Assembly (NCBI GenBank): GCA_030614715.1
Contig: JAUWTM010000012.1
Span: 1 to 46,165 of the forward strand
Reading direction: 5' to 3'
From: Planctomycetota bacterium
GTDB taxonomy: Bacteria; JAJVIF01; JAPKYR01
DNA length: 46,165 bases
Shown: positions 3,324-18,912 of the stretch, one piece after another
Layout of the letters: every line of letters starts with the position of its first letter
Numbering within the stretch: the first letter of the stretch is position 1
Translations under genes and position numbers: made by a program
Notes under the pieces: generated by a model
Told to the model about the DNA's origin: nothing
The model's database searches: none
The model's input: only the letters and a program-made list of their open reading frames with translations

Positions 3324-3332
3324 ATTATATCA
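3324..3332 (-). promoter_or_regulatory. Extended -10 promoter for the nucleotide-sugar operon
   Basis: On the minus strand the sequence reads TG-A-TATAAT, a consensus extended -10. It is 36 nt upstream of the ATG at 3287. No convincing -35 is visible, which is usual for extended -10 promoters. Confidence 0.5.
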
Positions 3333-3444
3333 TAACGCATGAAATCTGGATGATTAACCATGTTTGTGTTTGATTAAATTAGATCGTCTAACATTCATTT
3401 ATAACAGTGATACTAATGTAGACAAATTTTCAAGGTGCTAAGAG

Positions 3445-3915
3445 ATGTGCAGAATTATAATATCAACCTTTATTTTTCTACTCCTGACACTGCCGGCGCA
3501 TGCCGATGATGTTCAGACATTCGAGGTTGACCTCACAGTCGGCATTATCTCTGTTTATACCATCAATAACGGTGCTCCTCTTACTTTCACATTTGATGAG
3601 TATGTGGACTTCGGTGTAGCCAACGACATTGGCGATATCAATTACGACCTGACGGTCAACGCGGGGTGGCTGATAAATGGGATAATCCTTGACGGTACCC
3701 AGGGCGGCCAGACTGCCGATGACTGGGATTCCATAAACTGGACACTGACGGTAAATGGAGTGACGATAGATGAGGCCGGGTCCACGACCATTGACAGTGA
3801 TGGATCGCCCGTTTTCAGGGATGATGCACTGTGGCCTGTAACCCTTAATATTCCGTGGTCTGAAAACGCTCAGACACCTGACTGTACGATCGAATTAACC
3901 GCTGTATCTCCCTGA
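3445..3915 (+). CDS. Small exported protein, putative fibre subunit A1
   Basis: A 156-aa protein with a clear Sec signal peptide: MCR, then a hydrophobic run to LPAHA, with predicted cleavage after residue 20. The mature ~136 residues are beta-rich and acidic, with conserved blocks TINNGAPLTFT, YVDFGVAND and GSTTIDSDGS. It is a close paralogue of the next gene (4047-4517), same length, in a 602-bp tandem duplication. It sits upstream of two more small exported proteins, a PapD-like or WxL-binding-like protein and an usher-like barrel, so I infer a secreted structural subunit. No family recognised with certainty; one Cys (near residue 148) in the mature part, so no internal disulfide. Confidence 0.7.
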   Translation: MCRIIISTFIFLLLTLPAHADDVQTFEVDLTVGIISVYTINNGAPLTFTFDEYVDFGVANDIGDINYDLTVNAGWLINGIILDGTQGGQTADDWDSINWTLTVNGVTIDEAGSTTIDSDGSPVFRDDALWPVTLNIPWSENAQTPDCTIELTAVSP

Positions 3916-4046
3916 GTAGTTCTATCGGGTATCATAACCCCAGAAATCCGGATGATTAACCATGTTTGTGATTGCTTAGATTAGATCGTTTAACAAACTT
4001 TTTCCACAGGGATAATATTGTACACAAATTTGTAGGGAGGTTAGAG

Positions 4047-4517
4047 ATGCGTAGAATTATCATCTCATCCTTTATTTTCTTACTCCTGACAATACCGGCG
4101 CATGCCGATGTTATTCAGACGCTCGACGTTGAAATCACAGTCGAGACTATCCTTACTTTTACCATCAATAACGGTGCTCCTCTTACTTTCACATATGATG
4201 AGTATGTGGACTTCGGTGTAGCCAACGACATCGGTGATGTCGATTACGACCTGACGTCCAACCAGGGGTGGGAAGTAAACGGGATAATCCTGGACGGTGT
4301 CCAGAGCGGTCAGACTGCTGATGACTGGGATGGCGTTGCATGGACATTGACAGTTAATGCAGTGACGATTACTGAGGTAGGGTCCACGACCATTGACAGT
4401 GATGGATCCGCTGTTTTCAGGGATGACTCACTGTGGGACGTTACACTCAATATTCCATGGCCCGAGAGCGCTCAGACACCTGACTGCACGATCCAGTTAA
4501 CCGCGGCATCTGTCTGA
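4047..4517 (+). CDS. Small exported protein, putative fibre subunit A2 (tandem paralogue of A1)
   Basis: A 156-aa protein. The reading frame is open further upstream, but the start at 4047 is chosen because it aligns exactly with the paralogue's start, has a strong ribosome-binding site (GGGAGG at 4035-4040) and begins directly with the signal peptide (MRRIII to IPAHA, cleavage after residue 20). The mature part matches A1 in length and in the blocks TINNGAPLTFT, YVDFGVAND and GSTTIDSDGS. Differences concentrate near the mature N-terminus (DVEITVETILTF against DLTVGIISVY). Same inferred role as A1. An imperfect terminator-like hairpin at 4602-4648 separates it from the next genes. Confidence 0.7.
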   Translation: MRRIIISSFIFLLLTIPAHADVIQTLDVEITVETILTFTINNGAPLTFTYDEYVDFGVANDIGDVDYDLTSNQGWEVNGIILDGVQSGQTADDWDGVAWTLTVNAVTITEVGSTTIDSDGSAVFRDDSLWDVTLNIPWPESAQTPDCTIQLTAASV

Positions 4518-4601
4518 GAGATTCTATCGGGCATACTCAGCTTTCCAGGAAGAAGCTGACGAAATAAAGTGTTGGCAAAGACACCTGGGGAGTTTAGTAA
4601 T

Positions 4602-4648
4602 AAAGGTAAGATCTGCCTCGAACGGCTGATCGTATCTTTATTTTAGGC
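4602..4648 (+). terminator. Possible rho-independent terminator after subunit A2
   Basis: An imperfect 11-bp stem (4602-4612 with 4629-4639, one G.T wobble and one mismatch) is followed by TTTATTTT. It would separate the A1/A2 pair from the operon beginning at 4778. Confidence 0.35.
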
Positions 4649-4777
4649 TTGCATTGCAGGGAGATGCGATGTATTGCGGGAACATTGCATCAATATGGCA
4701 AATTTATAAATCCATATTAAATAATAGAAAGGACGTTATACAGGCGAAATATACTTCAATCACTGTGATATTAAGAT

Positions 4778-5290
4778 ATGTATGAGAAGAATGCACGGTG
4801 CGTGAAGGCCCGTTCCTTTATCATTATCTTGATAACCGTATTTTTATCAACACTGGTTATCACTTCCCCGGTATCAGCAGACTCAGAGGACATCACAGGA
4901 TTCACCATGACGGTTACGGAGGTGCGGTCACTTGAAATCTCCGCATCTTCCGCGTTTTTCGTGCCCGGAGTCCGTGAATTGCTGGATGGTGAGTCGTCAC
5001 CGCAGACATGGGTGGCGAGTGTAAGTGCCAATGTCGACTGGGTGCTGACAATCAGGGGGGCTGAGAGCTTCTGGGAGGGTCCCTGGGACAAGCCGGTCAG
5101 TGACATCCTCTGGGAGTATGACGGAAGCGGGTGGCTTGCCCTCAGCACAGAACCGGTTGAGATCAGATCGGGCGGTCCGTCGAATCAGGAGGCCTACCCA
5201 ATCAGCGTTAAGGTTAATCTCGATATCGAGCAGGATATCCCGGGTGAATATTACTACGGATACGTGGTACTGGAACTTTCATCACCATGA
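4778..5290 (+). CDS. Small exported protein, putative fibre subunit B
   Basis: A 170-aa protein from ATG 4778, or 162 aa from the in-frame GTG at 4802, which would put the charged n-region directly before the hydrophobic run. The Sec signal peptide ends at about SPVSA. The mature part is beta-rich with Trp-containing blocks (WVASVSANVDWVL, LLWEYDGSGW-like) and ends in a strand-like motif, GEYYYGYVVLELS. This recalls the last strand of spore-coat-U/Csu-type pilins (G.Y.D.V.V.L), but the resemblance is weak. Its stop overlaps the next start as ATGA. No recognised domain; the fibre-subunit role is inferred from neighbours. Confidence 0.65.
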   Translation: MYEKNARCVKARSFIIILITVFLSTLVITSPVSADSEDITGFTMTVTEVRSLEISASSAFFVPGVRELLDGESSPQTWVASVSANVDWVLTIRGAESFWEGPWDKPVSDILWEYDGSGWLALSTEPVEIRSGGPSNQEAYPISVKVNLDIEQDIPGEYYYGYVVLELSSP

Positions 5291-5763
5291 AAAACAATGC
5301 GACCAGGATAATAACAATCCTTATCATGGCTTCGGTGATCGGATTCCTTTTCTCTGCTGCACCAGCTTACGCGGAACAGGCGGTCACGGTGAGCGACATC
5401 AACCTTGGGCTGGTTGGCGAGGAGGACTTCGCCAACGGTTACGTTTTCCTTCCGAGGGTTCCCGTTTTCTGGGATAGCGATGTGCCATGGCGGTTGACTA
5501 TTCAGTCACTGGGTGCCGATCTTGGAGCCGGCGATGACGGCATGACTGATAAATCACTTTCAGACCTTCTCTGGAAGCTGTCCGACGAAGAAAACTGGCT
5601 ACCTGTTACCCAGGATCCGGAGGAAGTGGAATGGTCCATGGAGTCTGGAACCGGGGTTGTTTATATCGATCTCGTTGTGTTGATCGACTGGCTTTACGAT
5701 TCACCGGGTCAGTACCAGGTGGATCTGACATTCAGAATCGAAATTCTGCCGGAAACGTCCTGA
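5287..5763 (+). CDS. Small exported protein, putative fibre subunit C
   Basis: A 158-aa protein starting in the ATGA overlap with subunit B, so the two are translationally coupled. The signal peptide runs to PAYA with predicted cleavage after residue 29. The mature protein repeats the layout of subunit B: a Trp-containing block with WRLTIQSLG, then SLSDLLWKLSDEENWLPV, then a final strand with GQYQVDLTFRIEI. B and C therefore look like distant paralogues (DVDWVLTIRG and VPWRLTIQS align, as do SDILWEYDGSGWLAL and SDLLWKLSDEENWLP). It is followed after 110 bp by the chaperone-like gene. Structural subunit is the inference; no database family recognised. Confidence 0.65.
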   Translation: MKNNATRIITILIMASVIGFLFSAAPAYAEQAVTVSDINLGLVGEEDFANGYVFLPRVPVFWDSDVPWRLTIQSLGADLGAGDDGMTDKSLSDLLWKLSDEENWLPVTQDPEEVEWSMESGTGVVYIDLVVLIDWLYDSPGQYQVDLTFRIEILPETS

Positions 5764-5873
5764 ATAGTTTTCCGACTGCCATTTATAAACCTGTCAGTCT
5801 GGTGAATGTTCAGCGACGTGTTCCGGCTGCATGGGTAGATGGATATGAGTCATTCGAAATCAGGAGTAGCAAT

Positions 5874-6779
5874 ATGACTGGACCTGCAACAAGCCTTGAC
5901 AGAACCCGAATCCTGCTGATTTTCATCCTGTTGGGAACTGCGCTGCTGACGGCACCCTCAATTGCGCATGCGCAGGGATTCTCAGTCGCCTTCGACAGGG
6001 TTGAGTTTGAAGTGACGTCCGGTGATCTCAAAACGGGAAGCATCTCGGTCACTAACCTGTCGAGTGAACCGACAACCCTGAAAATCTATGCCGGTGACTG
6101 GGTCAGGATCCCCGGAGACCGAACGGGTTATCAATTCGATGATATAACGGGCAACGAATCCCGCTCGTTCCTCGATTGGATGTCATTCACACCCGAGCGA
6201 ATGACCCTTCAACCTGATGAATGGAAGGATGTTCAGTATGAAATCCGTGTTCCGAATGATCCGGGTCTCGAGGGCAGCTACTGGGGGGTAATTTTTATCG
6301 AGGAGACACCGGATGGTATGCCGTTAATTACCCAGGATGATTCAAGTCTTATGGCCGTAGGCATCAATACGGTGTTCCGCTACGCGATCCAGATCTACGT
6401 GACGGTTGTTGGCACCGAAATCAGGGATGTTACCTTCGCGTCGATCGATTTCCAGCAGTCCGAGAGTGGTATTGATGTAACAGCGGCTGTTGAGAACCTT
6501 GGAAATATCTATATGCGTCCGCAGGTATGGCTTGAGGTCAGGGATATTTACGGAGTCATAGTCTACACTGAGGATCACATCAGGCAGACACTGCTTCCGG
6601 AAAGCACCCGCAACTATAATTTCACACTGGATGCCCAGATACTCGATCCCGGCGTATACCTGGTGATGGTTATCGCTGATTACGATGCTCCAACACTTAT
6701 TGCCGCGCAGGGCCGCATCGAAATTACAACAGATCAGGCTGTATCACACCCCGGAGGGGAGAATCTGCTCGAAGAATGA
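5874..6779 (+). CDS. Periplasmic chaperone-like protein (PapD/WxL-binding-like)
   Basis: A 301-aa protein. The frame is open from 5631, but the start at 5874 has AGGAG 7 nt upstream and leads directly into a signal peptide (hydrophobic run to SIAHA, cleavage after residue 33). The first mature strands (FSVAFDRVEFEVTSGD then GSISVTNLSSEPTTLKIYAGDW) match the N-terminal Ig-like fold of periplasmic pilus chaperones and of WxL-interacting (DUF916-type) proteins. The block LQPDEWKDVQYEIRVPND followed by GSYWGVIFIEE has the pattern of PapD-type strands F-G. A second Ig-like half follows (about 190-290). Its stop overlaps the next start (ATGA), so it is coupled to the usher-like gene. Subunit chaperone is the inferred role. 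Confidence 0.6.
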   Translation: MTGPATSLDRTRILLIFILLGTALLTAPSIAHAQGFSVAFDRVEFEVTSGDLKTGSISVTNLSSEPTTLKIYAGDWVRIPGDRTGYQFDDITGNESRSFLDWMSFTPERMTLQPDEWKDVQYEIRVPNDPGLEGSYWGVIFIEETPDGMPLITQDDSSLMAVGINTVFRYAIQIYVTVVGTEIRDVTFASIDFQQSESGIDVTAAVENLGNIYMRPQVWLEVRDIYGVIVYTEDHIRQTLLPESTRNYNFTLDAQILDPGVYLVMVIADYDAPTLIAAQGRIEITTDQAVSHPGGENLLEE

Positions 6780-9586
6780 TGGCATCCAGCACAGGCATAT
6801 TGCATGCATGCCCGAAAACTGGTGTGCATGAGTCCACGGGACGATGGATCAGGCTGATCTGTCTCGCGGCCATTCCTGTGCTGTTATTTTTTGCCCTTGA
6901 AACAAGCCCGGTTTACGCGTCCGCCGGTCTGAACATGGAAATCCTCACGGAGACGGAAATTGAATCTATACCTCGTCAGGTTATTACAGTCAGTGCGAGG
7001 CTGATCAATGAAACTGACGTCTATCATGAATGCCGGGTGTACGGTGAAGCCCAGGTCGGCTGGGAGGTTATCGCTACACCTGAGGTATCCGGAATCGAAC
7101 CCGGTGGATCAGAGGTTATATTCCTGACGATTACACCCCCAGCTCACGTATATGCTGGATCCTATCCAATAAATATCGTAGCGTACTTCGATGACGACCC
7201 GTCTGTGTCGACGCAAGCTGAGATCACGGTGATTGTTCAGCCGGTTCTAACTCTTGAGGTCATTACAACAAGGCTTGGACAGACAATCGCCAGCAATGGT
7301 GACGTGATCGAAAATTCGATCACTGTAATAAACCACGGCAACATGGAAACCCGGGTCAGAATGGAGTTTGAAACTCGTCCGAACTGGGAGATATCAACTG
7401 CCGATGAACTGGAGTTCACACTTGCCCCGGGACTTAGCGAGAGGCTGGTTGTCACTACTCACGTTCCTGTCTCAATTGACAGGTCATATACATACCGCAT
7501 GACAGCAATCGCCCGTACGCTTGAGCCGTATGAAGGTGTCGAAGCAAGATCGACATCCACAACAAATACGATACCGACGGTTGTTTCATCGGGGACGATC
7601 TATGCAAGTCTCGAGGGCACAGTCGAGGCGCAGGTTTCCTTCGATGATGATGGCAATGAGGCTGCAACGATCTCCTTTGAAAACCTCCATGGGGACCTTG
7701 GTGATGGGAGGTCGCTGACGGTTAACGCACGTAACCTGCTTGTAGTCGGGGACAGCTCAGGAACCCTTATACAGAACGAAGATATAAACGTTGAATACCA
7801 TGATAATACGGGTGTGCATGTCCGTGCGGGTGATTTCCCGGTAGACCTTGAGGCTCCACTTGTCGACCGTCACCTGAGAGGCAGGGGAGGAGAGATCATT
7901 GTCAGCAGCGGACAGACAACGTGCCGCCTGTTCCATACAAGGGAGAGGACGTCTACACCGGCAGATAACACCGGTGCCCAGATTATATTCAGGCCAAATG
8001 CTGAGACTGAGTTCCGTCTCACGGGGATGAACGTGGATGATGTGTCTTACGAGGATGGTGATTCCGGAAGGGTCGACCTTCTGAAACGCGTTGGGATCTC
8101 CGCGACATACACCCCGTCGATGGGAATGGAATTTACCGGGGAATTAGCGCATTCGAGTTCAATCGGTTATGGATCACAGGACGCGTGGCGTTTATACGGG
8201 AGGTACAGTAACAATAATTTCGCAGCATCGTGTGAGTGGCTGAGAGCCGGATCGGGATATGTCGGGGGCTGGCACGACACTGAGCTCAGACGTGTGAACG
8301 TTTCATGGCGTCCGGTCGACGATTTCAGGGTCTGGTCCAACTACAGCAGTTCCAGGAACAACCTTGATGAAATACCGTCGATGCAAGGCAACCTATACCG
8401 CAACCTGTCCGGAGGTTTTTCATGGAACCTTGGCGATCTTGGACGTATCAGGGTCTCACACAGGACCAACAGGATATACGACACGATCCTGGACCACTCC
8501 GAATCGCTTTCCAGGGTGATTGTGGCTTCCCTCTCCCATGACTGGGGAGACCTCTCGGCAACCGCATCCTACCAGCACCAGGTAAACGAGGGGCTGACAC
8601 TGGAGGACAGGGCGGTCGACAGGACGCTTCGCTTTGATGTTTACAGCAGGCTGGGCAGGGGCTCATCTGTAAGACTTGGATATGCCACGGGAACCGAGTC
8701 GAGCCAGAACGGGCTGATAAGCAATAATATCGCCGAATACAGCATTGGCAGCTACTTCAGCATTACACAGGATCTGAATTTTTCATTCGATCTCCAGAGA
8801 AACACCGGCAGTCCACTGGGCAACAGAACTTATTTATACAGCACTCTTCACTGGGACCTCGCGCGTGAAAGGGACCTCTACTTCCGATTTCGCCAGTACA
8901 GGACAATAGGTGACAACGAGACAGAGATTCTGGTCGAATATTCAATGCCGATCAGTGTGCCGTTAAGCATGTTCCCGCTGAATGGCGGCCTTGAGGGAAG
9001 GGTTTTCCTGCTGGATGACTCGGATACCGGTATCGCGGACGTTCTCGTGAATCTTGGGAATTTCGAAGCGATGACAGACGACGGGGGTTATTTCGCATTC
9101 CCATCGATTGAGGCTGGGGACGTACTGGTTTCGATAGATGAAGGCACGTTACCGGTCGGGCTGAAACCACAGATCGATCTGCCGGTAATGGTTTCGATCC
9201 GTGCAGGCTCCACATCGAATGTTGAAATCCCGGTGCAGGAAACAGCATCGGTGTCCGGCAAGGTTGTTCTGCTCTCGGACAACCTCATAGGTGGCGAAGA
9301 AACTACACCGCTTGCGGACTATATAATCGAGCTGCTGGGAGAATCGGGCAGCCAATACAGGTATACGGATTCCCATGGACGGTACTCGTTCACTGACCTT
9401 GAGCCGGGATTGTACAAGGCGATAATTCGAACGGACAACCTTCAGGAATACCAGGAAGTGCTGGGCCTGATTGAATATGAAGTCGAGTTAGTGCCGGGGG
9501 ATAATTACACCGAGCTCGATTTCACCATCGGCCTTGTTGAGCGAGAAATTCGGATTGTAATCAGTGCTACCGAAGAGGTCGAATAA
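6776..9586 (+). CDS. Usher-like outer-membrane barrel with NEW3 and CarboxypepD_reg-like domains
   Basis: A 936-aa protein with a long n-region and signal peptide ending near VYA (residue 48). Residues about 70-155 and 160-250 look like two NEW3-type beta-sandwiches (V.N, GWEV, G.S..V...I.PP, AGSYPI.I.A). Residues about 270-735 are alternating short strands with many Tyr/Trp/Arg and tight turns, as in a large outer-membrane beta-barrel. Features such as VHVRAGDFPVDLEAPLVDRHL recall usher-type proteins. Two carboxypeptidase-regulatory-like/SdrD B-like domains follow (about 736-800 and 823-890: GLEGRVFLL...GGYFAFPSIEAG and VSGKVVLL...GRYSFTDLEPGLY). It overlaps the chaperone-like gene by ATGA. 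I infer it exports the small proteins encoded upstream. A classical PF00577 usher with its N-terminal domain is not evident. Confidence 0.55.
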   Translation: MMASSTGILHACPKTGVHESTGRWIRLICLAAIPVLLFFALETSPVYASAGLNMEILTETEIESIPRQVITVSARLINETDVYHECRVYGEAQVGWEVIATPEVSGIEPGGSEVIFLTITPPAHVYAGSYPINIVAYFDDDPSVSTQAEITVIVQPVLTLEVITTRLGQTIASNGDVIENSITVINHGNMETRVRMEFETRPNWEISTADELEFTLAPGLSERLVVTTHVPVSIDRSYTYRMTAIARTLEPYEGVEARSTSTTNTIPTVVSSGTIYASLEGTVEAQVSFDDDGNEAATISFENLHGDLGDGRSLTVNARNLLVVGDSSGTLIQNEDINVEYHDNTGVHVRAGDFPVDLEAPLVDRHLRGRGGEIIVSSGQTTCRLFHTRERTSTPADNTGAQIIFRPNAETEFRLTGMNVDDVSYEDGDSGRVDLLKRVGISATYTPSMGMEFTGELAHSSSIGYGSQDAWRLYGRYSNNNFAASCEWLRAGSGYVGGWHDTELRRVNVSWRPVDDFRVWSNYSSSRNNLDEIPSMQGNLYRNLSGGFSWNLGDLGRIRVSHRTNRIYDTILDHSESLSRVIVASLSHDWGDLSATASYQHQVNEGLTLEDRAVDRTLRFDVYSRLGRGSSVRLGYATGTESSQNGLISNNIAEYSIGSYFSITQDLNFSFDLQRNTGSPLGNRTYLYSTLHWDLARERDLYFRFRQYRTIGDNETEILVEYSMPISVPLSMFPLNGGLEGRVFLLDDSDTGIADVLVNLGNFEAMTDDGGYFAFPSIEAGDVLVSIDEGTLPVGLKPQIDLPVMVSIRAGSTSNVEIPVQETASVSGKVVLLSDNLIGGEETTPLADYIIELLGESGSQYRYTDSHGRYSFTDLEPGLYKAIIRTDNLQEYQEVLGLIEYEVELVPGDNYTELDFTIGLVEREIRIVISATEEVE

Positions 9587-9680: not shown

Positions 9681-10517
9681 ATGACAACTGGTGTTCTGAC
9701 AGTCGGGCTTATCCAGCGTGAGATCGTGACCCACGATCCCGCAGGCAACCTCCTTTCCACGATCCACATGATGGAGCCCTGTGTCGCACAGGGAGTCAAT
9801 CTGTTTGTCCTGACAGAGCTCTGGGCAACCGGTCTTGTCGACATCACTGACCAGTCAAGCACGAACCTTGCCGAGAGCGTGGACGGTCCAACCGTCGAAG
9901 CGTTACGGGATTTCTGCAGAAACCATAAGGTGTGGCTACTTGCCGGTACGATAGCCCTGAAAACCAAATCCGGGCTGAAAAATACATCGCTGCTGATCGA
10001 TACCAGCGGCCAGGTAATCCTTGAATACTCGAAGGTGCACATGTTCCGTCCGATGGGTGAGGACTTAGTCTTTGAACCCGGGGACAGGCTTGTTGCAGCC
10101 GACGTAAACGGGATTGGTGTCGGTGTAATCATCTGTTATGACCTGCGATTTCCGGCCCTCACACGCCGCCTGGCGAAAGCCGGCTGCGAGGTAATCCTTG
10201 TTCCAGCGCTGTGGCCCGAGCTGCGGATCAATCACTGGGAAGCACTCCTCAGGGCCCGGGCCATTGAAAACCAGGTATATATGGTCGGTGCGAACGGCCT
10301 TGGATCGCAGCACGGACTGTTCATCCCGGGACATTCGATGATCGTCAGTCCGAACGGGGAATCGCTGAACTCTGCCGAGATGCGTGAGAGCGCAATCGTG
10401 CGCAAGCTGGACATTGCAAAACTCCGTCAGATCAGGAGTGAGATGTGCTTCCTGGATGATGAGGTAGAGATACAGGATGTACACTGGCCCGCAAGGGTGA
10501 ACGAATCCGGGGGGTAG
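9681..10517 (+). CDS. Carbon-nitrogen hydrolase (nitrilase superfamily amidase)
   Basis: A 278-aa cytoplasmic enzyme of full family length. The catalytic triad is readable: Glu46 in VLTELWATG, Lys118 in EYSKVHMF and Cys152 in IICYDLRFP. The sequence DLRFP after the Cys and the spacing match the omega-amidase/Nit2-like branch, which hydrolyses alpha-ketoglutaramate-type or other small amides; the exact substrate cannot be read from sequence. There is no signal peptide. It starts a new plus-strand group after the usher-like gene, with a TATAAT only 13 nt before the ATG and no evident Shine-Dalgarno sequence, so it may be translated from a nearly leaderless mRNA. Confidence 0.88.
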   Translation: MTTGVLTVGLIQREIVTHDPAGNLLSTIHMMEPCVAQGVNLFVLTELWATGLVDITDQSSTNLAESVDGPTVEALRDFCRNHKVWLLAGTIALKTKSGLKNTSLLIDTSGQVILEYSKVHMFRPMGEDLVFEPGDRLVAADVNGIGVGVIICYDLRFPALTRRLAKAGCEVILVPALWPELRINHWEALLRARAIENQVYMVGANGLGSQHGLFIPGHSMIVSPNGESLNSAEMRESAIVRKLDIAKLRQIRSEMCFLDDEVEIQDVHWPARVNESGG

Positions 10518-10556
10518 CCAGTCATATTTCATGAGTACCTTTTATGCACTGGATAT

Positions 10557-10650
10557 GTAGCATGTGCGAAATACGTAGCATGTGCGAAATACGTAGCATG
10601 CGCGTCCCGCGCATGATTACCGGTCACACGTTCGTCTCGAACGTGTAGAC
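10557..10650 (+). repeat. REP1 element with two truncated head copies
   Basis: Two tandem 18-bp heads starting GTAGCATGTGCG (10557-10574 and 10575-10592) precede a full REP1 unit. That unit is GTAG at 10593, hairpin 1 at 10597-10615 (8-bp perfect stem) and hairpin 2 at 10626-10646 (9-bp perfect stem). It lies between the amidase and MoxR genes. Confidence 0.85.
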
Positions 10651-10669
10651 CAGAGACCAAGGAGCCGCC

Positions 10670-11701
10670 ATGAGTCACCCCGATATCGACGCATCCATCC
10701 CCCAGGCCGAAGTTGACGCCTTCAAGGGAGATTACGAAAAAGTTACCAAAGAGGTCGCCAAGGTTATTGTCGGACAGGAGGAAGTGGTCAAGGCGACCCT
10801 GATTGCGATATTTGCCGACGGTCACGCACTTCTCGAGGGTGTCCCGGGCCTTGGCAAGACTCTCCTCATCAGCACGCTCTCGCAAGTCCTGGACCTCCAG
10901 TTCCGCAGGATTCAATTCACTCCGGATCTCATGCCGGCGGACATCGTTGGTACGAATATCATCATGGAACGTCAGGACGGGCAGAAGTATTTCCAGTTTC
11001 AGAAGGGTCCTGTCTTCACGAACATACTCCTTGCCGATGAGATCAACCGGGCGACACCAAAAACCCAGTCAGCGCTTCTGGAAGCCATGCAGGAACGTCA
11101 CGTGACCGCTGCAGGCACCACACATATACTCGACAAGCCATTTTTCACTCTCGCGACACAGAACCCCCTTGAAATGGAAGGAACGTACCCCCTTCCCGAG
11201 GCGCAGCTCGACCGTTTCCTCTTCAAGATCATGGTTCCGTTCCCACCGGCGGATGATCTCGCTGAAATTATAAACAGGACAACCGGGACGCACACAAGTG
11301 ATCCTCAGAAAGTTGTCGACGGTCCCCGTATTCTCCAGATGAAGGAACTGGTCAGGAAAGTCCCTATCGCCCACCACGTCACTCACTACGCGGTCCGTCT
11401 TGTTAACGCGACACATTCAGAGATAGAGGGATGCCCGTCGATCGTGAAAAAGTACGTGCGTGTCGGTTCCAGTCCACGAGGCGCGCAGACACTGGTGCTT
11501 GCCGCCAAGGTGGAAGCCCTCCTGAGCGGCAGATTTAACGTGGCATTCGACGATATCCGTAAGGTGGCAATGCCGGGCCTGCGTCACAGGATCATCCTGA
11601 ATTTTGAGGGTGAAGCCGAGGGGATTGAGACCGATGACGTGGTCGCTGCCTGCATCAAGGAAGTTCCGGTACGTGAAAAGGGACCGCCTGTGGTAGTTTA
11701 G
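10670..11701 (+). CDS. MoxR-family AAA+ ATPase
   Basis: A 343-aa cytoplasmic ATPase. Walker A is GVPGLGKT (residues 57-64) and Walker B is ILLADEIN (about 119-126), followed by NRATPKTQSALLEAMQE, the MoxR signature. Sensor and lid regions are complete (TLATQNPLEMEGTYPLPEAQ). The family acts as a chaperone-like ATPase that remodels or activates partner proteins, usually encoded beside DUF58 and von Willebrand A-domain proteins. None of those partners is adjacent here: the next gene is a patatin phospholipase 27 bp downstream, and a REP1 repeat precedes it. A good ribosome-binding site (AAGGAG at 10659-10664) supports the start. Confidence 0.92.
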   Translation: MSHPDIDASIPQAEVDAFKGDYEKVTKEVAKVIVGQEEVVKATLIAIFADGHALLEGVPGLGKTLLISTLSQVLDLQFRRIQFTPDLMPADIVGTNIIMERQDGQKYFQFQKGPVFTNILLADEINRATPKTQSALLEAMQERHVTAAGTTHILDKPFFTLATQNPLEMEGTYPLPEAQLDRFLFKIMVPFPPADDLAEIINRTTGTHTSDPQKVVDGPRILQMKELVRKVPIAHHVTHYAVRLVNATHSEIEGCPSIVKKYVRVGSSPRGAQTLVLAAKVEALLSGRFNVAFDDIRKVAMPGLRHRIILNFEGEAEGIETDDVVAACIKEVPVREKGPPVVV

Positions 11702-11728
11702 CAACCTGAGAGCTTCCTCGAATCTTAG

Positions 11729-12685
11729 ATGAATTCCAGACCAGAAAAAATCGGACTCGCTCTTGGTTCAGGGGCTGCGCGTGGATGGGCGCATATCGGC
11801 GTTATCAGGGCGTTGAGAGCGCATAACGTACGAATAGATTGTATTGCTGGGACGAGTATCGGCGCGCTGGTCGGTGCCGCGTACGCAGGCGGTGATATCG
11901 ATAACCTTTACAATTTCGTCAAGCAACTCGACTGGAAACAGTTGATTAACTTCTGGGACCCGGTTTTCCCCAAGACAGGATTGATCGACGGCAAGAAGGT
12001 AGCGGATTTCATTCGGGATCATTCAAAAAAAGAGCGGATCGAGGACATGCCGGTACCGTTTAGAACAGTCTCTACGAATATCCTCACAGGCAGGGAGCAT
12101 GTTTTCACCGATGGCGATGTAATCAGCGTCGTCAGGGCAAGCTTGTCGATTCCAGGAATGTTTACACCAATGAAGCACGGTGATATGGTGCTGGTCGACG
12201 GTGCTCTCGTGAATCCGCTGCCAATCAATGTTGTACGCGATATGGGAGCGGATTTCGTGATCGCGGTTGACATCAATTTCGGTACGGAGGCGTTTCATTC
12301 GGAAAGGCTTAAGTGCAGGGATGAACCGGATGCGGGTATCGTTCACGAGGATCTGAAATTTGAAACAGCGTGGGAGCAGAAACTTGCAGAGCTGGGTAAA
12401 AATCTGGCGATTCTGGAATTCAACACGAAAAAACAACTCGATCAATGGGTGAGGAAGGAATCCATACCGAATATTTTTGAGATTCTGATGCAGTCTTATA
12501 ACGTCCTCGAAGTACAGATTACGGAAACCCGCCTGAAAACTGATCCTGCGGATGTTCTGATACGTCCAAAGTTAGCGCATATAGGGCTTCTTGATTTTAA
12601 CTGTGCAGAGGAATCGATTGAGGAGGGGTACAGGAGCACAGTAGAGTTGATTGAGAAACTCCCGGTTGATTCCAGTGGATCATAA
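11729..12685 (+). CDS. Patatin-like phospholipase (RssA-like)
   Basis: A 318-aa Ser-Asp dyad lipid acyl hydrolase. The oxyanion-hole motif GSGAARG is at residues 13-19, the nucleophile elbow GTSIG at 41-45 (Ser43), and the catalytic Asp157 in VDGALVNP. After about residue 200 there is a longer C-terminal extension of about 110 residues with charged helices (EDLKFETAWEQKLAELG) not typical of the minimal RssA core. There is no signal peptide, so it is probably a cytoplasmic or membrane-associated enzyme. It starts 27 bp after the MoxR gene, so co-expression is likely. It ends 2 bp from the stop of the convergent flippase gene. Confidence 0.9.
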   Translation: MNSRPEKIGLALGSGAARGWAHIGVIRALRAHNVRIDCIAGTSIGALVGAAYAGGDIDNLYNFVKQLDWKQLINFWDPVFPKTGLIDGKKVADFIRDHSKKERIEDMPVPFRTVSTNILTGREHVFTDGDVISVVRASLSIPGMFTPMKHGDMVLVDGALVNPLPINVVRDMGADFVIAVDINFGTEAFHSERLKCRDEPDAGIVHEDLKFETAWEQKLAELGKNLAILEFNTKKQLDQWVRKESIPNIFEILMQSYNVLEVQITETRLKTDPADVLIRPKLAHIGLLDFNCAEESIEEGYRSTVELIEKLPVDSSGS

Positions 12686-12687
12686 CC

Positions 12688-14004
12688 TCATCTTTTCAAT
12701 GCCAGTTTCAGACGTTCTGCCACGGTTTTAAAATCCCCGAACTTCACAAACAGTGTATCCCTCACATTAAACCCGTAATTTTTTACGCAGTATCCAAGCA
12801 CCATAGCGAGGAACACGAAATGTGTCGCGAATGAGCTCCATGCCGCTCCGTACATATGGTATTTCGGGATCAGTATTACATTAGCGACAATTTTAATAAT
12901 TACTACAACAGTCGAATAAACAACGACAAATATCGGCAGGCCCCTTCGAGCAAGCTCCGCGGCAAGGATGCTTTCAATTCCGAGAAAGAGAATCCCACCC
13001 AGCAGGATTATCAATGGTCCATGTCCGAGTGTGAATTCCGGACCAAAAATGCCGAGGAACCACTTCCCGATGATCGCGAACAGGATCCATAGAACAACGA
13101 GCAGCAATGCAGTCAGCCTCGCGATCATCATGGTGAATTTCGCTCGTTCATCGAGACCCGTCGTCTCCGATTCCCCGGCCTGCATCAGTTTTGGAAAGAG
13201 CAGCATACCGAAGGTCATCGGGATGAGGTAGACGAGGTCGCTGACGTAGACAACCTGGCGGTATATCCCGGCGGTGCTCTCATCGATGTACGCATTGATG
13301 AAGATGATGTCGCTCCGGATGATGAGAAACGCCATAAGTGCGGCGTAGTAGCTCTTCCAGCCGTAGCCGATCAGGTCACGGAGCGCTTTCCAGTCGATTT
13401 TCAGGTTAAATTGCGACGCCTGCCATGCGAATCCACCGTTCAGGATACCCATCGCGACCGCTGCAGCCACCGTCAACAGTACGATTGCGGGAATCCACTG
13501 TGATTCATCGAGTGCGTAGAATACTACAAATGCCGCGATCAGTGTAAGTCCACGGACGACAGCTTCGATCACGTTGTACTCGGTAATTTTCTGGTGAACG
13601 AGCAGAATCTGCTGGAAGAACAGCGACAGTAACAGCGGCGCGATCGAGATCAGCATTATGTGGTAAAGGCTGGGGTTGATATTCCCCAGGATCCGGGGTG
13701 TTAGTAAACCTGCAATTACAAATCCACCAAACAGAATTATCGAGATCAGGAGCCCGATCGATGTTATTGTCGAAGCTATTGCCTTCGAACGGTCCTTGTC
13801 GAGACCGATGAAATAGATCGCACCGACACCAAGTCCGAGATTTCCGAACTGCACACCGATATTCGCGAAAGTCTGGAGGGTTCCGACTACCCCGATACCG
13901 TCCGCTCCAATTTTTCTCGCGATGAGGATGTTGTACGTAAGCGTGATGACAAGCAGGAAGCCACGGGTAATGAGCGTAATACCCGCCTGCCTGAGGAAGC
14001 TCAC
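12688..14004 (-). CDS. Polysaccharide flippase (Wzx/MATE-like, oligosaccharide exporter)
   Basis: A 438-aa integral membrane protein with about 12 hydrophobic helices and the N-terminal pattern FLRQAGITLITRG..L..ITLTYNILIARKIGADGIG typical of Wzx-type MOP-superfamily exporters. It would flip undecaprenyl-linked repeat units of a surface polysaccharide across the inner membrane. It overlaps the upstream asparagine synthase stop by 4 bp, so the two form an operon. A similar pairing of asparagine-synthase-like proteins with polysaccharide genes is common in exopolysaccharide loci. The polymer cannot be named from this. Confidence 0.88.
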   Translation of the reverse strand: MSFLRQAGITLITRGFLLVITLTYNILIARKIGADGIGVVGTLQTFANIGVQFGNLGLGVGAIYFIGLDKDRSKAIASTITSIGLLISIILFGGFVIAGLLTPRILGNINPSLYHIMLISIAPLLLSLFFQQILLVHQKITEYNVIEAVVRGLTLIAAFVVFYALDESQWIPAIVLLTVAAAVAMGILNGGFAWQASQFNLKIDWKALRDLIGYGWKSYYAALMAFLIIRSDIIFINAYIDESTAGIYRQVVYVSDLVYLIPMTFGMLLFPKLMQAGESETTGLDERAKFTMMIARLTALLLVVLWILFAIIGKWFLGIFGPEFTLGHGPLIILLGGILFLGIESILAAELARRGLPIFVVVYSTVVVIIKIVANVILIPKYHMYGAAWSSFATHFVFLAMVLGYCVKNYGFNVRDTLFVKFGDFKTVAERLKLALKR

Positions 14005-16019
14005 GTCTGTGCCCCCGAGTTCGCCACCCAGTGATCGTACCAGAGTGCGAGGTTGAAAAGCGACCAGATCGGATACGCAAATTCGCGTCCGAGTTTCCTG
14101 TGCTGGTTCAGGAGGTCCAGCCCGCTGTCGAAATCGATCAGGCGCTCATCCCTGAGCTTTGTCGACCTGAACGTGGCCTCGACCTTGTCACCAAGCGACC
14201 CCTTCAACCACTCGGATACGGGTGCACCGAAACCCATCTTCTTGCGGTCGATAATTTCATCCGGTATCAGGCCGCGTACCGCTTCCTTCAGGATGTATTT
14301 CGGGACGTTGTTCTTTACTTTCAGTGCTGACGGGATGTTCATGGAAAATTCGACAAGCTTGTGATCGAGGAATGGAACGCGTGCCTCAATCGAAGTCGAC
14401 ATCGTGATTTTGTCGACACGCATGAGGAGCAATTCGACCAGCCTGAGCTTGAATTCGAGGTAAATCATCCGCTCCATGAAGTCGGCTGATGGTTTCTTTG
14501 TCTTGATCGTCGACAGGTACTCATTCACGACGCCGAAACTGTCGAGTTGGCCGAATCCCGATGGCATCCAATTAACGGGATCGTCTACAGTTTGATTCGA
14601 TTGAATTCTGGACGTCCAGTGTGTCCGGTCCGCAACGATGTCCTGCTTGAATCCTTCCGGGTAGGAGATCGCGCCGCCCCAGAAAAGCTCTCGGTCCTTC
14701 CATGCACGGTACGCATGCTCCTTACGTCCTCTCCACCCCGGCTGTATGGCGCTCATGAGCGAGGTGCCGCCGTAGACCAGTCCACGCGCGAAGTGCGGCA
14801 GCCCCATCAACGGGTTCCAGTACTTCTCGCGCCATCTCATGATCTCCATGTAACCGTCGTAGCCGAAAAACTGCTCGTCCGAGCCCTCTCCGACCTGCAC
14901 GACAATTGTTCCGGCGTCCCTGACGAGTTTGCTGACAAAATAGAGCGGGACACAGACCCAGTCGGCGATGGGTTCGTCCTGCGACACGATCAGCTGGTCG
15001 AGATACCCCTGCATGTCATCTGAGTCGATCAGGACCTCATGGTGATCGGTATTGTAAAGGTCGCGTATTTTTCTCGCGTAGTTCAGCTCGTTGTAATCCG
15101 GTTCGTCCTTGAATCCGACCGTGAATGTTTTCACAGGACGGTCCATGACAGCGTCCATCAGCGCGACGTTGGTCGACGAATCGATGCCACCCGAGAGGAA
15201 TACGCCAAATGGGACGTCCGACATCATGCGCTTTTCAATCGACTGGGCCAGAAGCCGCCTGATCTCGCCCTTAACCCAATTTTCATCGTTGAATCGGTCA
15301 TCCTCAGGCGGAGGCACGATTGCATCCCACCACTGATGTCCGGTGATCCTGTACGGGCGATTGTCATGCTTGAATTCGATCTCGATGTAATGCCCGGCAG
15401 GAATTTTCCCGATGCCTTTGAACATCGTTTGCGGCGCGGGAGTGGTGAGGAATGTCAGGTAGTGATAACAGGCGAGGGGATCGATCCCGGCAGTGATTCC
15501 ACCGTGGGCCATCATCGCCTTAATTTCACTTGCGAAGAAGCAGACGCCGTTCTGGAATGAGTAGTAAAGCGGTTTGATGCCTATCCTGTCCCGTACGAGC
15601 CATGCACGTTTCTTATCAGAATCGTAAAAACAGAACGCGAACATGCCGTCGAATTTGTCCAGTGCGTCCAGACCCCACTCCATCAAGGCATGCATGACCG
15701 TCTCGGAGTCTGCACGTCCAGCAAATTCATGTCCAAGCTCTTTCAGTTCATCCCTGATCGACCCGTGGTTGTACGTCTCACCGTTATAAATGATGTGATA
15801 CCGTCCGCACGGGGAGTGCATCGGCTGAGCACCGGCGTTTGACAGTTCGACAATTGAGAGTCGTGTGAAAGCTAACCCGACATCACGGTTGTCACTCAGC
15901 CAGACACCTTCGTCGTCGGGACCGCGGTGACGGATCGATTCCGCCATCCGCCGTAGGTCGGATTCACGGATGTCGAATCTCTGGCCGGTGTAATTGAGTA
16001 TTCCCGCTATGCCGCACAT
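14001..16019 (-). CDS. asnB: Asparagine synthase (glutamine-hydrolysing), AsnB-type
   Basis: A 672-aa enzyme. The N-terminal Ntn glutaminase domain begins MCGIAGIL, so Cys2 is the nucleophile after Met removal. The synthetase domain carries the PP-loop SGGIDSS near residue 280. The frame is open five codons further upstream, but the start is set at 16019 for two reasons: Cys must be residue 2, and the longer start lies inside the -10 element. The promoter (TTGCAA, 17-bp spacer, TATGAT, minus strand 16030-16058) would then give a nearly leaderless mRNA. In this context, ahead of a flippase gene, it may amidate a sugar uronate or a peptide precursor of the surface polysaccharide and not supply free asparagine; that is inference. 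Confidence 0.9.
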   Translation of the reverse strand: MCGIAGILNYTGQRFDIRESDLRRMAESIRHRGPDDEGVWLSDNRDVGLAFTRLSIVELSNAGAQPMHSPCGRYHIIYNGETYNHGSIRDELKELGHEFAGRADSETVMHALMEWGLDALDKFDGMFAFCFYDSDKKRAWLVRDRIGIKPLYYSFQNGVCFFASEIKAMMAHGGITAGIDPLACYHYLTFLTTPAPQTMFKGIGKIPAGHYIEIEFKHDNRPYRITGHQWWDAIVPPPEDDRFNDENWVKGEIRRLLAQSIEKRMMSDVPFGVFLSGGIDSSTNVALMDAVMDRPVKTFTVGFKDEPDYNELNYARKIRDLYNTDHHEVLIDSDDMQGYLDQLIVSQDEPIADWVCVPLYFVSKLVRDAGTIVVQVGEGSDEQFFGYDGYMEIMRWREKYWNPLMGLPHFARGLVYGGTSLMSAIQPGWRGRKEHAYRAWKDRELFWGGAISYPEGFKQDIVADRTHWTSRIQSNQTVDDPVNWMPSGFGQLDSFGVVNEYLSTIKTKKPSADFMERMIYLEFKLRLVELLLMRVDKITMSTSIEARVPFLDHKLVEFSMNIPSALKVKNNVPKYILKEAVRGLIPDEIIDRKKMGFGAPVSEWLKGSLGDKVEATFRSTKLRDERLIDFDSGLDLLNQHRKLGREFAYPIWSLFNLALWYDHWVANSGAQT

Positions 16020-16029
16020 AATCGGCCAC

Positions 16030-16058
16030 ATCATACGAGGGCCTTATTGGTGTTGCAA
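16030..16058 (-). promoter_or_regulatory. Sigma70-type promoter for the asparagine synthase/flippase operon
   Basis: On the minus strand, -35 TTGCAA (16053-16058), a 17-bp spacer and -10 TATGAT (16030-16035). The -10 ends 10 nt before the ATG at 16019, predicting a 5' leader of only a few nucleotides. No Shine-Dalgarno sequence is present for that ATG. Confidence 0.55.
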
Positions 16059-16080
16059 GTCACATCGAAACCAGATCGGC

Positions 16081-16086
16081 TATAAT
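16081..16086 (+). promoter_or_regulatory. -10 element (TATAAT) for the MFS transporter
   Basis: Consensus TATAAT ends 8 nt before the ATG at 16095, so the transcript is probably leaderless. No -35 at standard spacing is seen. Confidence 0.4.
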
Positions 16087-16094
16087 TCCCGTCA

Positions 16095-17477
16095 ATGCAA
16101 GACAGCACTGAAACCCAGTCAGTTAAGAACGCGGCCCTGCTTGTCGCGGTGCTGGCGTCATTCGTCACGCCGTTCATGGGATCCTCGATCAACATTGCAC
16201 TACCGGCGATCGGAGAGGAATTCCAGATGGACGCGGTCATGCTGGGATGGGTGGCGACATCGTACCTGCTCGCAGCGGCGCTTTTACTTCTGCCGTTCGG
16301 GAAACTGGCGGACATTCATGGACGAAAGAGGATCTTCGCGCTGGGGGTCTGGATCTACACGATCTCATCGCTGCTGTGTGGAGTGGCAACGATGCCGTTC
16401 CTCCTGATTCTCTGGCGGGTGGTTCAGGGATTCGGCAGCGCGATGATGTTCGGGACTGGTGTCGCGATCCTGACATCAGTTTTCCCCGTTGGAGAACGGG
16501 GCAGGGCGCTCGGGATCACGATTGCGTCAGTGTACATCGGGCTTTCGGTGGGTCCGTTTCTGGGCGGCCTGATGACCCAGCATCTGGGATGGCGAAGCAT
16601 TTTCCTGCTTAACGTACCGCTCGGACTTGTGATCATCGCCGCAATAATTCTAAGACTTAAAGGAGAATGGGCAGAGGCGAAGGGTGAAAAATTCGACGTT
16701 GTCGGCTCGATTATCTACGGGATCGGACTGGTCGCATTAATGTACGGGCTTTCCGAACTACCGGGATCGGTCGGAGTAATGCTTACGGGGATCGGATTGC
16801 TGTTAACTGTCGGATTTGTGTTCTGGGAGTTACGGGCAGTGAATCCAATCCTCGACATGAGGTTAATCAGGCGTAATACGGTATTTGCATTTTCGAACCT
16901 GGCAGCCCTGATCAATTACAGCGCGACATTTGCGGTTACATTCCTGCTCAGCCTGTACCTTCAGTATATAAAGGGGCTGGACCCGCAGCCTGCAGGGATC
17001 ATTCTCGTTGCGCAGCCGATAATGATGGCAATCTTTGCACCATATGCCGGGAAGCTCTCCGACCGCATGGAATCCAGGATCGTTGCGTCGATCGGTATGG
17101 GTCTCGCGGTGGTCGGTTTAATCATGCTTATCTTCCTGACCGATCGGACGTCGACAGCATATATAGTAATCAGTCTCATGATTCTGGGAACAGGCTTCGG
17201 GTTGTTTTCATCGCCGAATACGAACGCGATAATGAGTTCAGTCGAGCGCAGGTATTACGGGGTAGCGTCCGCGACCCTTGGAACCATGCGCCTTGTCGGG
17301 CAGATGTTCAGTATGGGGATTGCGATGCTGATATTCGCTTTGATAATCGGGAAAGTGCAGATAACACCTGAATATTACGGAGCGTTTCTTGTGAGTATAC
17401 GTACCGCGTTCATTATTTTCTCTGTGATGTGTTTCTGCGGTGTGTTTGCATCGATGGCAAGGGGCAGAATGAAGTGA
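16095..17477 (+). CDS. MFS transporter, DHA2-type (14 TM drug:H+ antiporter-like)
   Basis: A 460-aa membrane protein with about 14 predicted helices. The motif-A-like loop between helices 2 and 3, GKLADIHGRKRIF, and the helix-1 signature SSINIALPAIGEEF place it in the EmrB/QacA (DHA2) branch of the major facilitator superfamily, proton-driven exporters of hydrophobic compounds. A motif-C-like glycine-rich helix 5 (LGITIASVYIGLSVGPFLGG) is present, as expected for antiporters. It is divergent from the asparagine synthase gene and shares a 75-bp intergenic region with it. Substrate unknown. Confidence 0.9.
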   Translation: MQDSTETQSVKNAALLVAVLASFVTPFMGSSINIALPAIGEEFQMDAVMLGWVATSYLLAAALLLLPFGKLADIHGRKRIFALGVWIYTISSLLCGVATMPFLLILWRVVQGFGSAMMFGTGVAILTSVFPVGERGRALGITIASVYIGLSVGPFLGGLMTQHLGWRSIFLLNVPLGLVIIAAIILRLKGEWAEAKGEKFDVVGSIIYGIGLVALMYGLSELPGSVGVMLTGIGLLLTVGFVFWELRAVNPILDMRLIRRNTVFAFSNLAALINYSATFAVTFLLSLYLQYIKGLDPQPAGIILVAQPIMMAIFAPYAGKLSDRMESRIVASIGMGLAVVGLIMLIFLTDRTSTAYIVISLMILGTGFGLFSSPNTNAIMSSVERRYYGVASATLGTMRLVGQMFSMGIAMLIFALIIGKVQITPEYYGAFLVSIRTAFIIFSVMCFCGVFASMARGRMK

Positions 17478-17580
17478 TTACTAATGTGAATATCAAATTA
17501 GGCTGAGCTTGTGTATGGACGAAGTAGTTCTCTGTTGATACACTTCATTGTCAGACATGGAAAAATCCGAGTGAAGGGCA

Positions 17581-18912
17581 ATGAAGAGAATTGATCCAAA
17601 TGAATTGACAATACCCCGAGTATATTTTACGGAGTTTGATCGCATTACCTATTCGCAGGTTGCCTGGTCACCAGAAGACATTGAACATATAAGGCTTAAT
17701 CTTGAACGAAAAGTGAAGCTGTTTGGTTGTATTAAAGGTGTAGTAATTATCGCGACATCACATCTTTATGAATCGGAACTTGCGCAGGAATTTATCCAGG
17801 ATTATCCCATAGTGCTGGAGGAAGGTATTGTAAAACCTGCCTTGATATCAAAACACCAGACTTTCTCGGATTTCCTGTCTTACAAACGTGAGAAATCCAA
17901 CGAACAGGAAATGTATTCTGGAAAGGATAAGGACGTAATAGATAATATCCTGACCTGCTGTGTTAATGAGGTTGTGTCATGGGATGTCGAATCGACCTCG
18001 AAGTGGTTTGGAAACCGGATCAGGATGGACTTGCAGGATGAAAGGTCAGTACTGAGGCATTCACTCTGTGAAGTGCCCCAGAAAGTATTGGATGGAGTTA
18101 TTGGTCGGCTTGGCGAATTGGCGCAGCCATCGCGAGGCGAGATATATTTAATTGCAAAAGATTCAGGCAATCGCAAGTTATGGGCCAATCTATCTGAGTA
18201 TGCCGACCTGATTTATTATCTGTCAGGAGCCAGGGCTGTTAATTCAGAAGGAGTATTACCCCAGGAGAACCTCCTTGAATTCAGGATTACCGATCTGGGG
18301 TATCGAAAAACGAAGCTGTCTGAATTTGAAATTTTCTATAAAATCCTTGTTGGGATTATCAAGGAAAAAACAAAGAAAATTTTCCCGGTTGAAATTCTGG
18401 ACGCATTAACATTTGAGGAAATCATTGATCTCCGTAGGAGTGTATTGCATGAGGAGTTCATCGAAAAATATAATTCTCTGCTTGAATTGAGCAAGGATAG
18501 AATTGAAATTCTTGATGCTGAGCGTCTGGTCCTGACTTTAAAGGAAATAGAAGAACTCGATCAGGAACTCCACATATTATTTAATAACACCATTGAGAAG
18601 GAACTCAAATATCTAAAAAAGGCTGAAGTCGAATCCAAGGGATTGAAGGTGCTGTCAAATATCGGATCGATTCTTACGTTCTACGGGGCTGTGGAATCTG
18701 TAGTGCAGCTTTCAGTGAATACTCTGTCATTATTAGGTTTCGATCAGCTTATAATGCAGACAGAAGATAAAATTAATGGTTGCCTTTCAGCACTTGATAA
18801 AATGACAGATCGCTCATCGTTGAGCGACAAGCCGATCCTGCTGGATTATATTTCTGAAATCAGTAAACGATACGCTGGGAAATTATATGGGATCCCGAAA
18901 TACTTAAAATAG
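17581..18912 (+). CDS. Hypothetical protein, AT-rich orphan
   Basis: A 443-aa protein that I do not recognise. It is visibly more AT-rich than both neighbours, with many AAA, GAA, ATA and TTA codons, suggesting recent transfer. It has no signal peptide. The first half is mixed alpha/beta; the region 240-345 is strongly helical and charged (EILDAERLVLTLKEIEELD), possibly a coiled coil. Near residues 358-395 two hydrophobic stretches (GSILTFYGAVESVVQLSV, TLSLLGF) could be membrane-associating. It stands alone, 104 bp after the MFS gene and ending 9 bp from the stop of a convergent gene. A defence or toxin-like role is possible for such islands but nothing in the sequence proves it. Confidence 0.65.
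   Translation: MKRIDPNELTIPRVYFTEFDRITYSQVAWSPEDIEHIRLNLERKVKLFGCIKGVVIIATSHLYESELAQEFIQDYPIVLEEGIVKPALISKHQTFSDFLSYKREKSNEQEMYSGKDKDVIDNILTCCVNEVVSWDVESTSKWFGNRIRMDLQDERSVLRHSLCEVPQKVLDGVIGRLGELAQPSRGEIYLIAKDSGNRKLWANLSEYADLIYYLSGARAVNSEGVLPQENLLEFRITDLGYRKTKLSEFEIFYKILVGIIKEKTKKIFPVEILDALTFEEIIDLRRSVLHEEFIEKYNSLLELSKDRIEILDAERLVLTLKEIEELDQELHILFNNTIEKELKYLKKAEVESKGLKVLSNIGSILTFYGAVESVVQLSVNTLSLLGFDQLIMQTEDKINGCLSALDKMTDRSSLSDKPILLDYISEISKRYAGKLYGIPKYLK

Follow-up and report, generated by a model that had tools for sequence, protein, structure and literature searches.

The subject of this analysis is a set of six genes at positions 3445-9586 of the contig JAUWTM010000012.1 from a Planctomycetota bacterium (assembly GCA_030614715.1), which together have the appearance of a chaperone-usher (CU) system for the assembly of surface fibres. 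The whole analysed stretch of 46,165 nucleotides is referred to as the window. An earlier reading of its letters, the sequence-only reading, proposed six secreted proteins here, and all six open reading frames (ORFs) are found on the + strand once two starts are corrected. The start of A2 is set at the ATG at 4047, the listed ORF beginning at the TTG at 3972, and that of the chaperone at 5874, the listed ORF beginning upstream at 5631. The genes are as follows:

3445-3915, + strand: subunit A1, an ORF of 156 amino acids (aa) with a signal peptide; putative major subunit
4047-4517, + strand: subunit A2, an ORF of 156 aa with an ATG start and a signal peptide; tandem paralogue of A1
4778-5290, + strand: subunit B, an ORF of 170 aa with a signal peptide
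5287-5763, + strand: subunit C, an ORF of 158 aa with a signal peptide; its start overlaps the stop of B (ATGA)
5874-6779, + strand: putative periplasmic chaperone, 301 aa, two immunoglobulin (Ig)-like domains
6776-9586, + strand: putative outer-membrane usher, 936 aa; its start overlaps the stop of the chaperone (ATGA)

The coupling of B to C and of the chaperone to the usher by overlapping codons, proposed before, is confirmed by the ATGA at 5287-5290 and at 6776-6779. The division of the subunits into two tandem and two distant paralogues also stands. A1 and A2 are 76.8% identical across 155 aa, and B and C are linked by hhalign at 95.8% with an E-value of 8e-9 (hhalign E-values throughout are those of single comparisons); profile comparison of A1/A2 with B/C found no sequence link. 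The A1/A2 duplication takes in the leader, as positions 3331-3909 and 3933-4511 are 81.9% identical over 579 bases without a gap. The duplicated leader extends at least 114 bases upstream of each start, so each copy may have a promoter to itself. One promoter-like site is located at 3990-4018; sites of this kind are no commoner than in shuffled sequences. A1-like proteins occupy the same place in the related loci L008/L065 and L009/L064.

The 936-aa protein is an usher by its fold. Its AlphaFold2 model, built from 44 sequences, has a mean predicted local distance difference test (pLDDT) score of 85.5 and a predicted template-modelling (TM) score of 0.62, and in the barrel (261-730) 30 of the 47 ten-residue blocks are at pLDDT >=90. 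The model divides the chain into the following parts:

24-39: helix (signal), AlphaFold2 model
about 50-250: two Ig/NEW3-like domains, AlphaFold2 model and Pfam
about 256-734: barrel, 27 strand elements in the AlphaFold2 model
about 736-833 and 850-920: C-terminal domains, AlphaFold2 model

When the model is compared with the PDB by Foldseek, the nine best of 1467 matches are, without exception, FimD or PapC, with E-values of 9e-17 to 3.3e-12, and the best barrels other than ushers are LptD (4.7e-8) and then BtuB (7.5e-7). The usher-like barrel that had been suspected is thus present in the model, and two Ig/NEW3-like domains at about 50-250 indeed occupy the place of the usher N-terminal domain (NTD). 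Pfam recognises this region as NEW3-like (E 1.5e-4) and FixG_C-like (1.7e-3), neither of which reaches the curated cut-off, and residues 50-252 reach 0.5% by profile against whole CU ushers. The companion proposal, that SdrD B-like domains replace the usher C-terminal domains (CTDs), does not hold: the C-terminal domains of the window usher are colinear with the CTDs of CU ushers and homologous to them by profile (95.5%, E 1.6e-8, reversed control 0.6%). The Pfam matches of this region are CarboxypepD_reg (2.1e-8, above the cut-off) and SdrD_B (8.2e-6, below it). Among the PDB matches of the usher profile that were dropped, NOMO2 (E 5.6e-6, profile positions 730-877) is explained by the C-terminal domains and the glucocorticoid receptor by chance.

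The longest stretch between barrel strands of the model is 12 residues, which leaves no plug domain in the window usher, and the plug profile does not list this protein. Judged by the model, the missing plug is the most unusual feature of the window usher. PF00577, the Pfam usher family, is matched by none of the ushers of twelve relatives. An example of an usher of a different build is found in L013 (5660-9489, G031 C73), from a genome related to that of the window at the domain level only. Here, a chaperone of the new family adjoins an usher whose barrel is CU-like and whose N-terminus carries a Cu_amine_oxidN1 domain. This usher is the best of 1038 proteins for a profile built from the barrels alone of FimD and six archaic-type ushers (E 7.6e-13, next 0.03), and the plug profile finds a plug-like stretch in it at 267-362 (E 3.5e-4, next 0.083). 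Its link to the barrel of the window type is 78% by hhalign (E 1.8e-5; 0.3% when reversed), with an hmmsearch E-value of 1.4e-4. On these profile matches, L013 is an intermediate locus bridging the window-type usher and the CU ushers.

The ends of the usher vary by lineage (L013, L049, L052, L054, L055, L058), with T2SS-T3SS_pil_N (secretin-like), Cu_amine_oxidN1 or TPR domains at the N-terminus. TPR is also present at the C-terminus in some lineages, and C-terminal domains of the SdrD_B/CarboxypepD_reg type are kept. In L073 (2515-5374, from an Acidobacteriota metagenome-assembled genome, MAG) the usher is split between two ORFs (264 and 708 aa), so that either the gene is broken or the sequence is in error.

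A pool of CU chaperones, made of six K-12 and six archaic-type sequences with signal peptides removed, is matched by the 11-row profile of the chaperone family at 99.0% (E 5.1e-18, 217 columns) and by the 37-row profile at 97.0% (E 1.2e-10), against 0.1-0.4% for the reversed-sequence controls. The G1 strand of FimC aligns on residues ~163-178 of the window chaperone, and in the 37-row columns R169 never varies, while Y170 and Q173 hardly vary. The G1 donor strand is expected, from this alignment, at residues about 160-178. In a maximum-likelihood tree, from which WxLIP proteins, chaperone ORFs of >=480 aa and rows with a profile E of 1e-8 or worse were excluded, 56 rows of the new family split from 12 CU rows with support 98/86, in 96% of 200 bootstrap trees. 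PapD_N is absent among the 25 of 29 Pfam families listed for the 37 chaperone relatives. The chaperones of G134 and G179 are matched by the family profile (2.1e-6 and 7.8e-5) and also score above the PapD_N cut-off. The one in G134 adjoins a new usher-profile match (289103-289570) in a genome with no PF00577 match genome-wide, and by these matches the locus (C2 289103-292403) is another possible intermediate.

A second relationship of the chaperone leads to Gram-positive surface proteins. Against the PDB, the 37-row profile matches EfmWxLIP1 (9i25) at E 1e-8 over most of the chain, and the next match is at 0.11. By this profile search, EfmWxLIP1 is the sole solved protein credibly matched, and it was missed by the sequence-only reading. 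Among the 37 relatives, at E<=0.1, Pfam finds WxLIP_PGBD in 15 (best 2.1e-6) and WxLIP_HBD in 11 (best 3.9e-9); the WxLIP matches of the window chaperone itself are far below the cut-off.

Window C is linked to subunits of other lineages by hhalign at 79.3% (E 1.6e-5), and window B by a weak profile link of 25%. An iterative family seeded with B takes in 148 of 1026 ORFs, 131 of them pre-listed as small secreted neighbours of the chaperone, and may contain drift. When the window, L064 and L065 rows are left out of the profile, six B/C genes rank 1-6 among 71 ORFs (E 4.4e-6 to 0.65). A value of 99.7% for a C set against the family alignment was dropped as evidence, because the alignment itself contains window C; subunit-profile PDB matches to designed trefoils and UNC-13 were set aside as chance. 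For the small proteins a pilin fold was anticipated, and a pilin-like fold is predicted, with weak E-values, for L131, a related subunit from the same class; this result covers L131 alone. Its AlphaFold2 model, from 50 sequences, has a pLDDT of 94.1, and 13 of the 15 best matches in a PDB structure search are CU pilins (E 0.0085-0.023), the best coming from the CsuC-CsuA/B complex.

All window subunits are single-domain, and longer members of the family have a different architecture. Of the 11 family proteins above 255 aa, the subunit domain lies at the very C-terminus in seven (domain E <=1e-5); C-terminal matches are weaker in three and absent in that of L061. In six of the seven an extra N-terminal region is present, which is the layout of two-domain tip adhesins. 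In the seventh, that of L138 (11454-12500, Chryseobacterium tagetis), two subunit domains stand in tandem in one 348-aa protein, a natural two-subunit chain that would be useful for work on donor-strand exchange.

The gene order subunits-chaperone-usher is the same in L008/L065, L009/L064, L012/L131 and L013. A search for the usher in 60 genomes gave five positives, the window's own included, and the chaperone profile is positive in 59 of 386 genomes. Of 20 contexts among the best chaperone matches, 17 have an usher-profile match within the locus (all at E 8e-7 or better). As for the others, L061 has a 932-aa protein at the usher position that is matched by a wider profile only, L062 is truncated where its contig ends, the rest of a chaperone, followed by an usher, lying at another contig end of the genome, and L051 has no usher-profile match on the locus. 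Among the 59 genomes the check covered these 20 contexts, the genomes already met in the usher search, G357, and G258, which has no usher adjoining the chaperone, so the figure counts chaperones and not systems.

A scan of named genomes by the chaperone motif alone yielded 189 stretches, of which 176 were confirmed and the best 80 kept. The usher directly follows the chaperone in 77 of these 80 loci under a strict rule (same strand, gap of -50 to 700 bases), and an usher-like gene is present in all 80. The three exceptions are L081 with a 59-base overlap, L083 with the usher upstream and L093, where the chaperone ORF was not called. Such recurrence of the chaperone-usher adjacency in relatives is more than chance. 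Several subunit genes are present per locus. Many of the 80 loci belong to Chryseobacterium or Prolixibacteraceae; Draconibacterium, Maribellus and Thermus are among the named genomes, and further loci come from Acetomicrobium (MAG) and Rhodothermia. MAGs labelled Acidobacteriota, Gemmatimonadaceae, Krumholzibacteriota, Spirochaetales, Aminicenantes, Armatimonadetes, Chlorobiota, Clostridiales and Planctomycetota are also represented. We take these labels to amount to about a dozen phyla, MAG labels being sometimes wrong. Among 72,556 plasmid records, tblastn with a Chryseobacterium usher and the window chaperone found no copies.

PF00577 is positive in 8 of 386 genomes (7 above the cut-off) and PapD_N in 8 of 270 (7 above the cut-off). 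The chaperone profile, by comparison, is positive in 59 of 386; the contrast is only rough because at least two of the 59 (G357, G312) have an ordinary CU chaperone by a PF00577 usher. A tally of 234 of 386 genomes by the whole-usher profile was discarded, since many of the listed matches span only stretches of the CarboxypepD_reg or NEW3 type. Both new-type and archaic CU genes occur in the genome G357. The stretch L158 (G357 C75, 1-17756) contains new-type chaperones (2609, 7923) and, at its edge, an usher-like C-terminus at 1-1638. An archaic CU operon (SCPU, PapD_N, SCPU, PF00577) is located at 13574-17756, less than 18 kb from the new-type genes.

Taken together, the locus very probably belongs to a remote, unnamed branch of the CU systems whose members in the window escape PF00577 and PapD_N. 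It is filed here as working like a CU system and is not placed in any recognised CU clade. The usher fold, the homology of chaperone and usher, the conserved gene set and the absence of the plug are computed here. The distant or new CU type suggested by the sequence-only reading agrees with the usher-like barrel fold, with the chaperone homology (99.0% by profile, reversed controls at 0.1-0.4%) and with the usher standing after the chaperone in 77 of 80 loci.

Several results weigh against this interpretation. From rank 10 onwards, the Foldseek list of the usher turns to Ig-rich axonemal proteins (from 5.5e-11, query TM 0.10-0.16) before more PapC chains follow, and the TM-scores are low: 0.30-0.34 for the whole chain, and 0.43 for the FimD pore against 0.38-0.42 for BtuB. 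The low scores and the axonemal matches mean that the Ig domains and the domain order supply part of the usher ranking. By profile, the barrel of the window group matches CU ushers weakly (24%), and the archaic-type set at 1.7%. Against K-12 alone, the usher profile reaches 11% (25% untrimmed) and the chaperone profile 3.8-5.2%, where its link is almost gone; both links are nearly absent with K-12 sequences and emerge once archaic-type sequences are added. PF00577 is not matched in the window proteins, nor is it listed by Pfam for the L013 usher at E<=1; the chaperone and the rest of the window proteins have no PapD_N match, and Pfam profiles find neither a PF00577 usher nor a PapD_N chaperone in the window genome. 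At E<=0.1, the Pfam family matched most often among the 37 chaperones, by 16 of them, is the general fn3_5. On the side of the subunits, A1/A2 have no profile link to any other family compared, the subunits have none to FimA or SCPU pilins, and all pilin E-values of L131 in Foldseek are above 0.001.

The mechanism that fits best is donor-strand complementation followed by donor-strand exchange, because of the homology of chaperone and usher and the fold of the related subunit. From these we infer the donor-strand chemistry, the subunit roles, fibre formation and adhesion. The subunits A1, A2, B and C would be exported by Sec as incomplete Ig-like domains, and each would be completed, by donor-strand complementation, with the G1 strand of the 301-aa chaperone (residues about 160-178). 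The complex would then dock on the 936-aa usher, where the two N-terminal Ig domains may stand in for the NTD; docking is likely to take place there, since the usher has no other part in the place of that domain. The subunits would be linked by donor-strand exchange and exit through the large plug-less barrel, with two C-terminal domains of the usher in the place of CTD1 and CTD2. The expected product is a surface fibre, probably adhesive, in which the tandem A1/A2 may form the main shaft and B/C the tip, adaptor or anchor.

The alternative that survives best is a diderm version of the WxL/WxLIP complex, in which small WxL-like domains are bound statically at the wall or surface and the barrel is an anchor or a porin. 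It draws on the EfmWxLIP1 chains, the only credible PDB matches of the chaperone profile (E 1e-8), on the two Pfam WxLIP domains, which at E<=0.1 are matched by 15 and 11 of the 37 members of the family, and on W-x-L strings seen by eye in the small subunits. Further, the description of WxLIP in PMC10599100 includes an AlphaFold2 model whose WxLIP hairpin strand is inserted into WxL and completes it. The same source has WxLIP ending in a membrane helix, and no such C-terminal helix is seen by eye in the window chaperone. PF13731, the Pfam WxL family, matches neither the window subunits nor any other protein of the window or its genome, two WxL proteins of G258 have no profile link to the subunits, the chaperone family can be matched to CU chaperones along most of its length, and the 936-aa partner is an usher by fold. 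We regard this alternative as improbable. The two G258 proteins, in tandem in L156 (G258 C659, 92-1547), are above the Pfam WxL cut-off; in the same genome a WxLIP-like chaperone lies where a contig ends (L155), and no usher is beside either within the stretches examined.

CU parts could also be re-used for the export of single adhesins or surface proteins, the barrel releasing or displaying a subunit without growth of a chain. Most family subunits are single-domain, and with the plug and the canonical NTD missing from the window usher, the control of assembly may differ. The multiple subunit genes per locus and the two-domain proteins with a C-terminal subunit domain suit a graded polymer better. 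Single export is a still less likely explanation than the static complex. That an ordinary large porin with Ig ornaments happens to lie beside unrelated secreted beta-sandwich proteins is barely credible, for although NEW3 and CarboxypepD_reg are promiscuous and many of the 234 whole-usher positives among 386 genomes arise from such stretches, the order is kept in 77 of 80 loci, all 80 of which have an usher-like ORF, as well as in 17 of another 20 contexts, and ushers lead the Foldseek ranking.

The remote CU branch, preferred here, can be given a wider form: a seventh, unnamed branch of the CU superfamily under roughly a dozen phylum-level labels, perhaps commoner than PF00577/PapD_N systems in the sampled genomes, with a chaperone that unites PapD and WxLIP. 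For this form we see the chances as evenly divided. If it is true, donor-strand chaperoning of surface proteins predates outer-membrane ushers and is not confined to them, and ushers could function without a plug or a canonical NTD. The cultured genera with the gene set would be the organisms in which to ask how a plug-less usher is gated, and poorly understood Gram-positive WxL surface proteins may be tied to a well-understood assembly mechanism. Among the literature matches listed, which cover few subscription papers or preprints, neither the branch nor a link between WxLIP and CU is described in the titles and abstract openings.

The window genome is 87% complete and has a single match to the 936-aa protein. 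Two Omp85 matches make an outer membrane, and so a diderm host, probable. NCBIfam gives no match above the cut-off for the six window proteins or for six proteins of relatives. Downstream, at 9681-14004, Pfam finds unrelated genes for a carbon-nitrogen hydrolase, a MoxR-type AAA ATPase, a patatin and a polysaccharide biosynthesis protein.

Three known systems bear comparison with the locus. The WxL/WxLIP (DUF916-DUF3324) clusters of Lactobacillales and Bacillales share with it a chaperone family that is remotely homologous over both WxLIP domains. In published accounts these clusters belong to firmicutes and consist of small and large WxL proteins together with WxLIP proteins, with no usher; unlike their products, the window subunits are not WxL by Pfam. 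The ushers of type 1 and P pili, FimD and PapC, have, like the window usher, a barrel followed by two C-terminal domains. Unlike them, the window usher has no plug insert and no usher NTD, and the K-12-only sequence link is 11%. The usher fold of CU systems, a 24-strand barrel followed by two C-terminal domains, agrees with the model of the window usher, in which 27 strand elements span residues 256-734.

The recognised CU clades are six in number (PMC9452303), and the archaic one covers alpha- to delta-proteobacteria, Cyanobacteria and Deinococcus-Thermus, according to PMC4654587. In contrast to archaic (sigma) CU systems, the window has no PF00577, PapD_N or SCPU matches, its usher lacks the plug and has two Ig domains in place of the NTD, and the new-family chaperones keep to their own side of the tree branch (98/86; 56 against 12 rows). 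Like the Csu pili of Acinetobacter (CsuC, CsuD, CsuA/B), the locus combines subunits, a chaperone of two Ig domains and an usher, with a chaperone profile homology of 99% to the archaic-type chaperones and to their pool with K-12, and with homologous usher CTDs.

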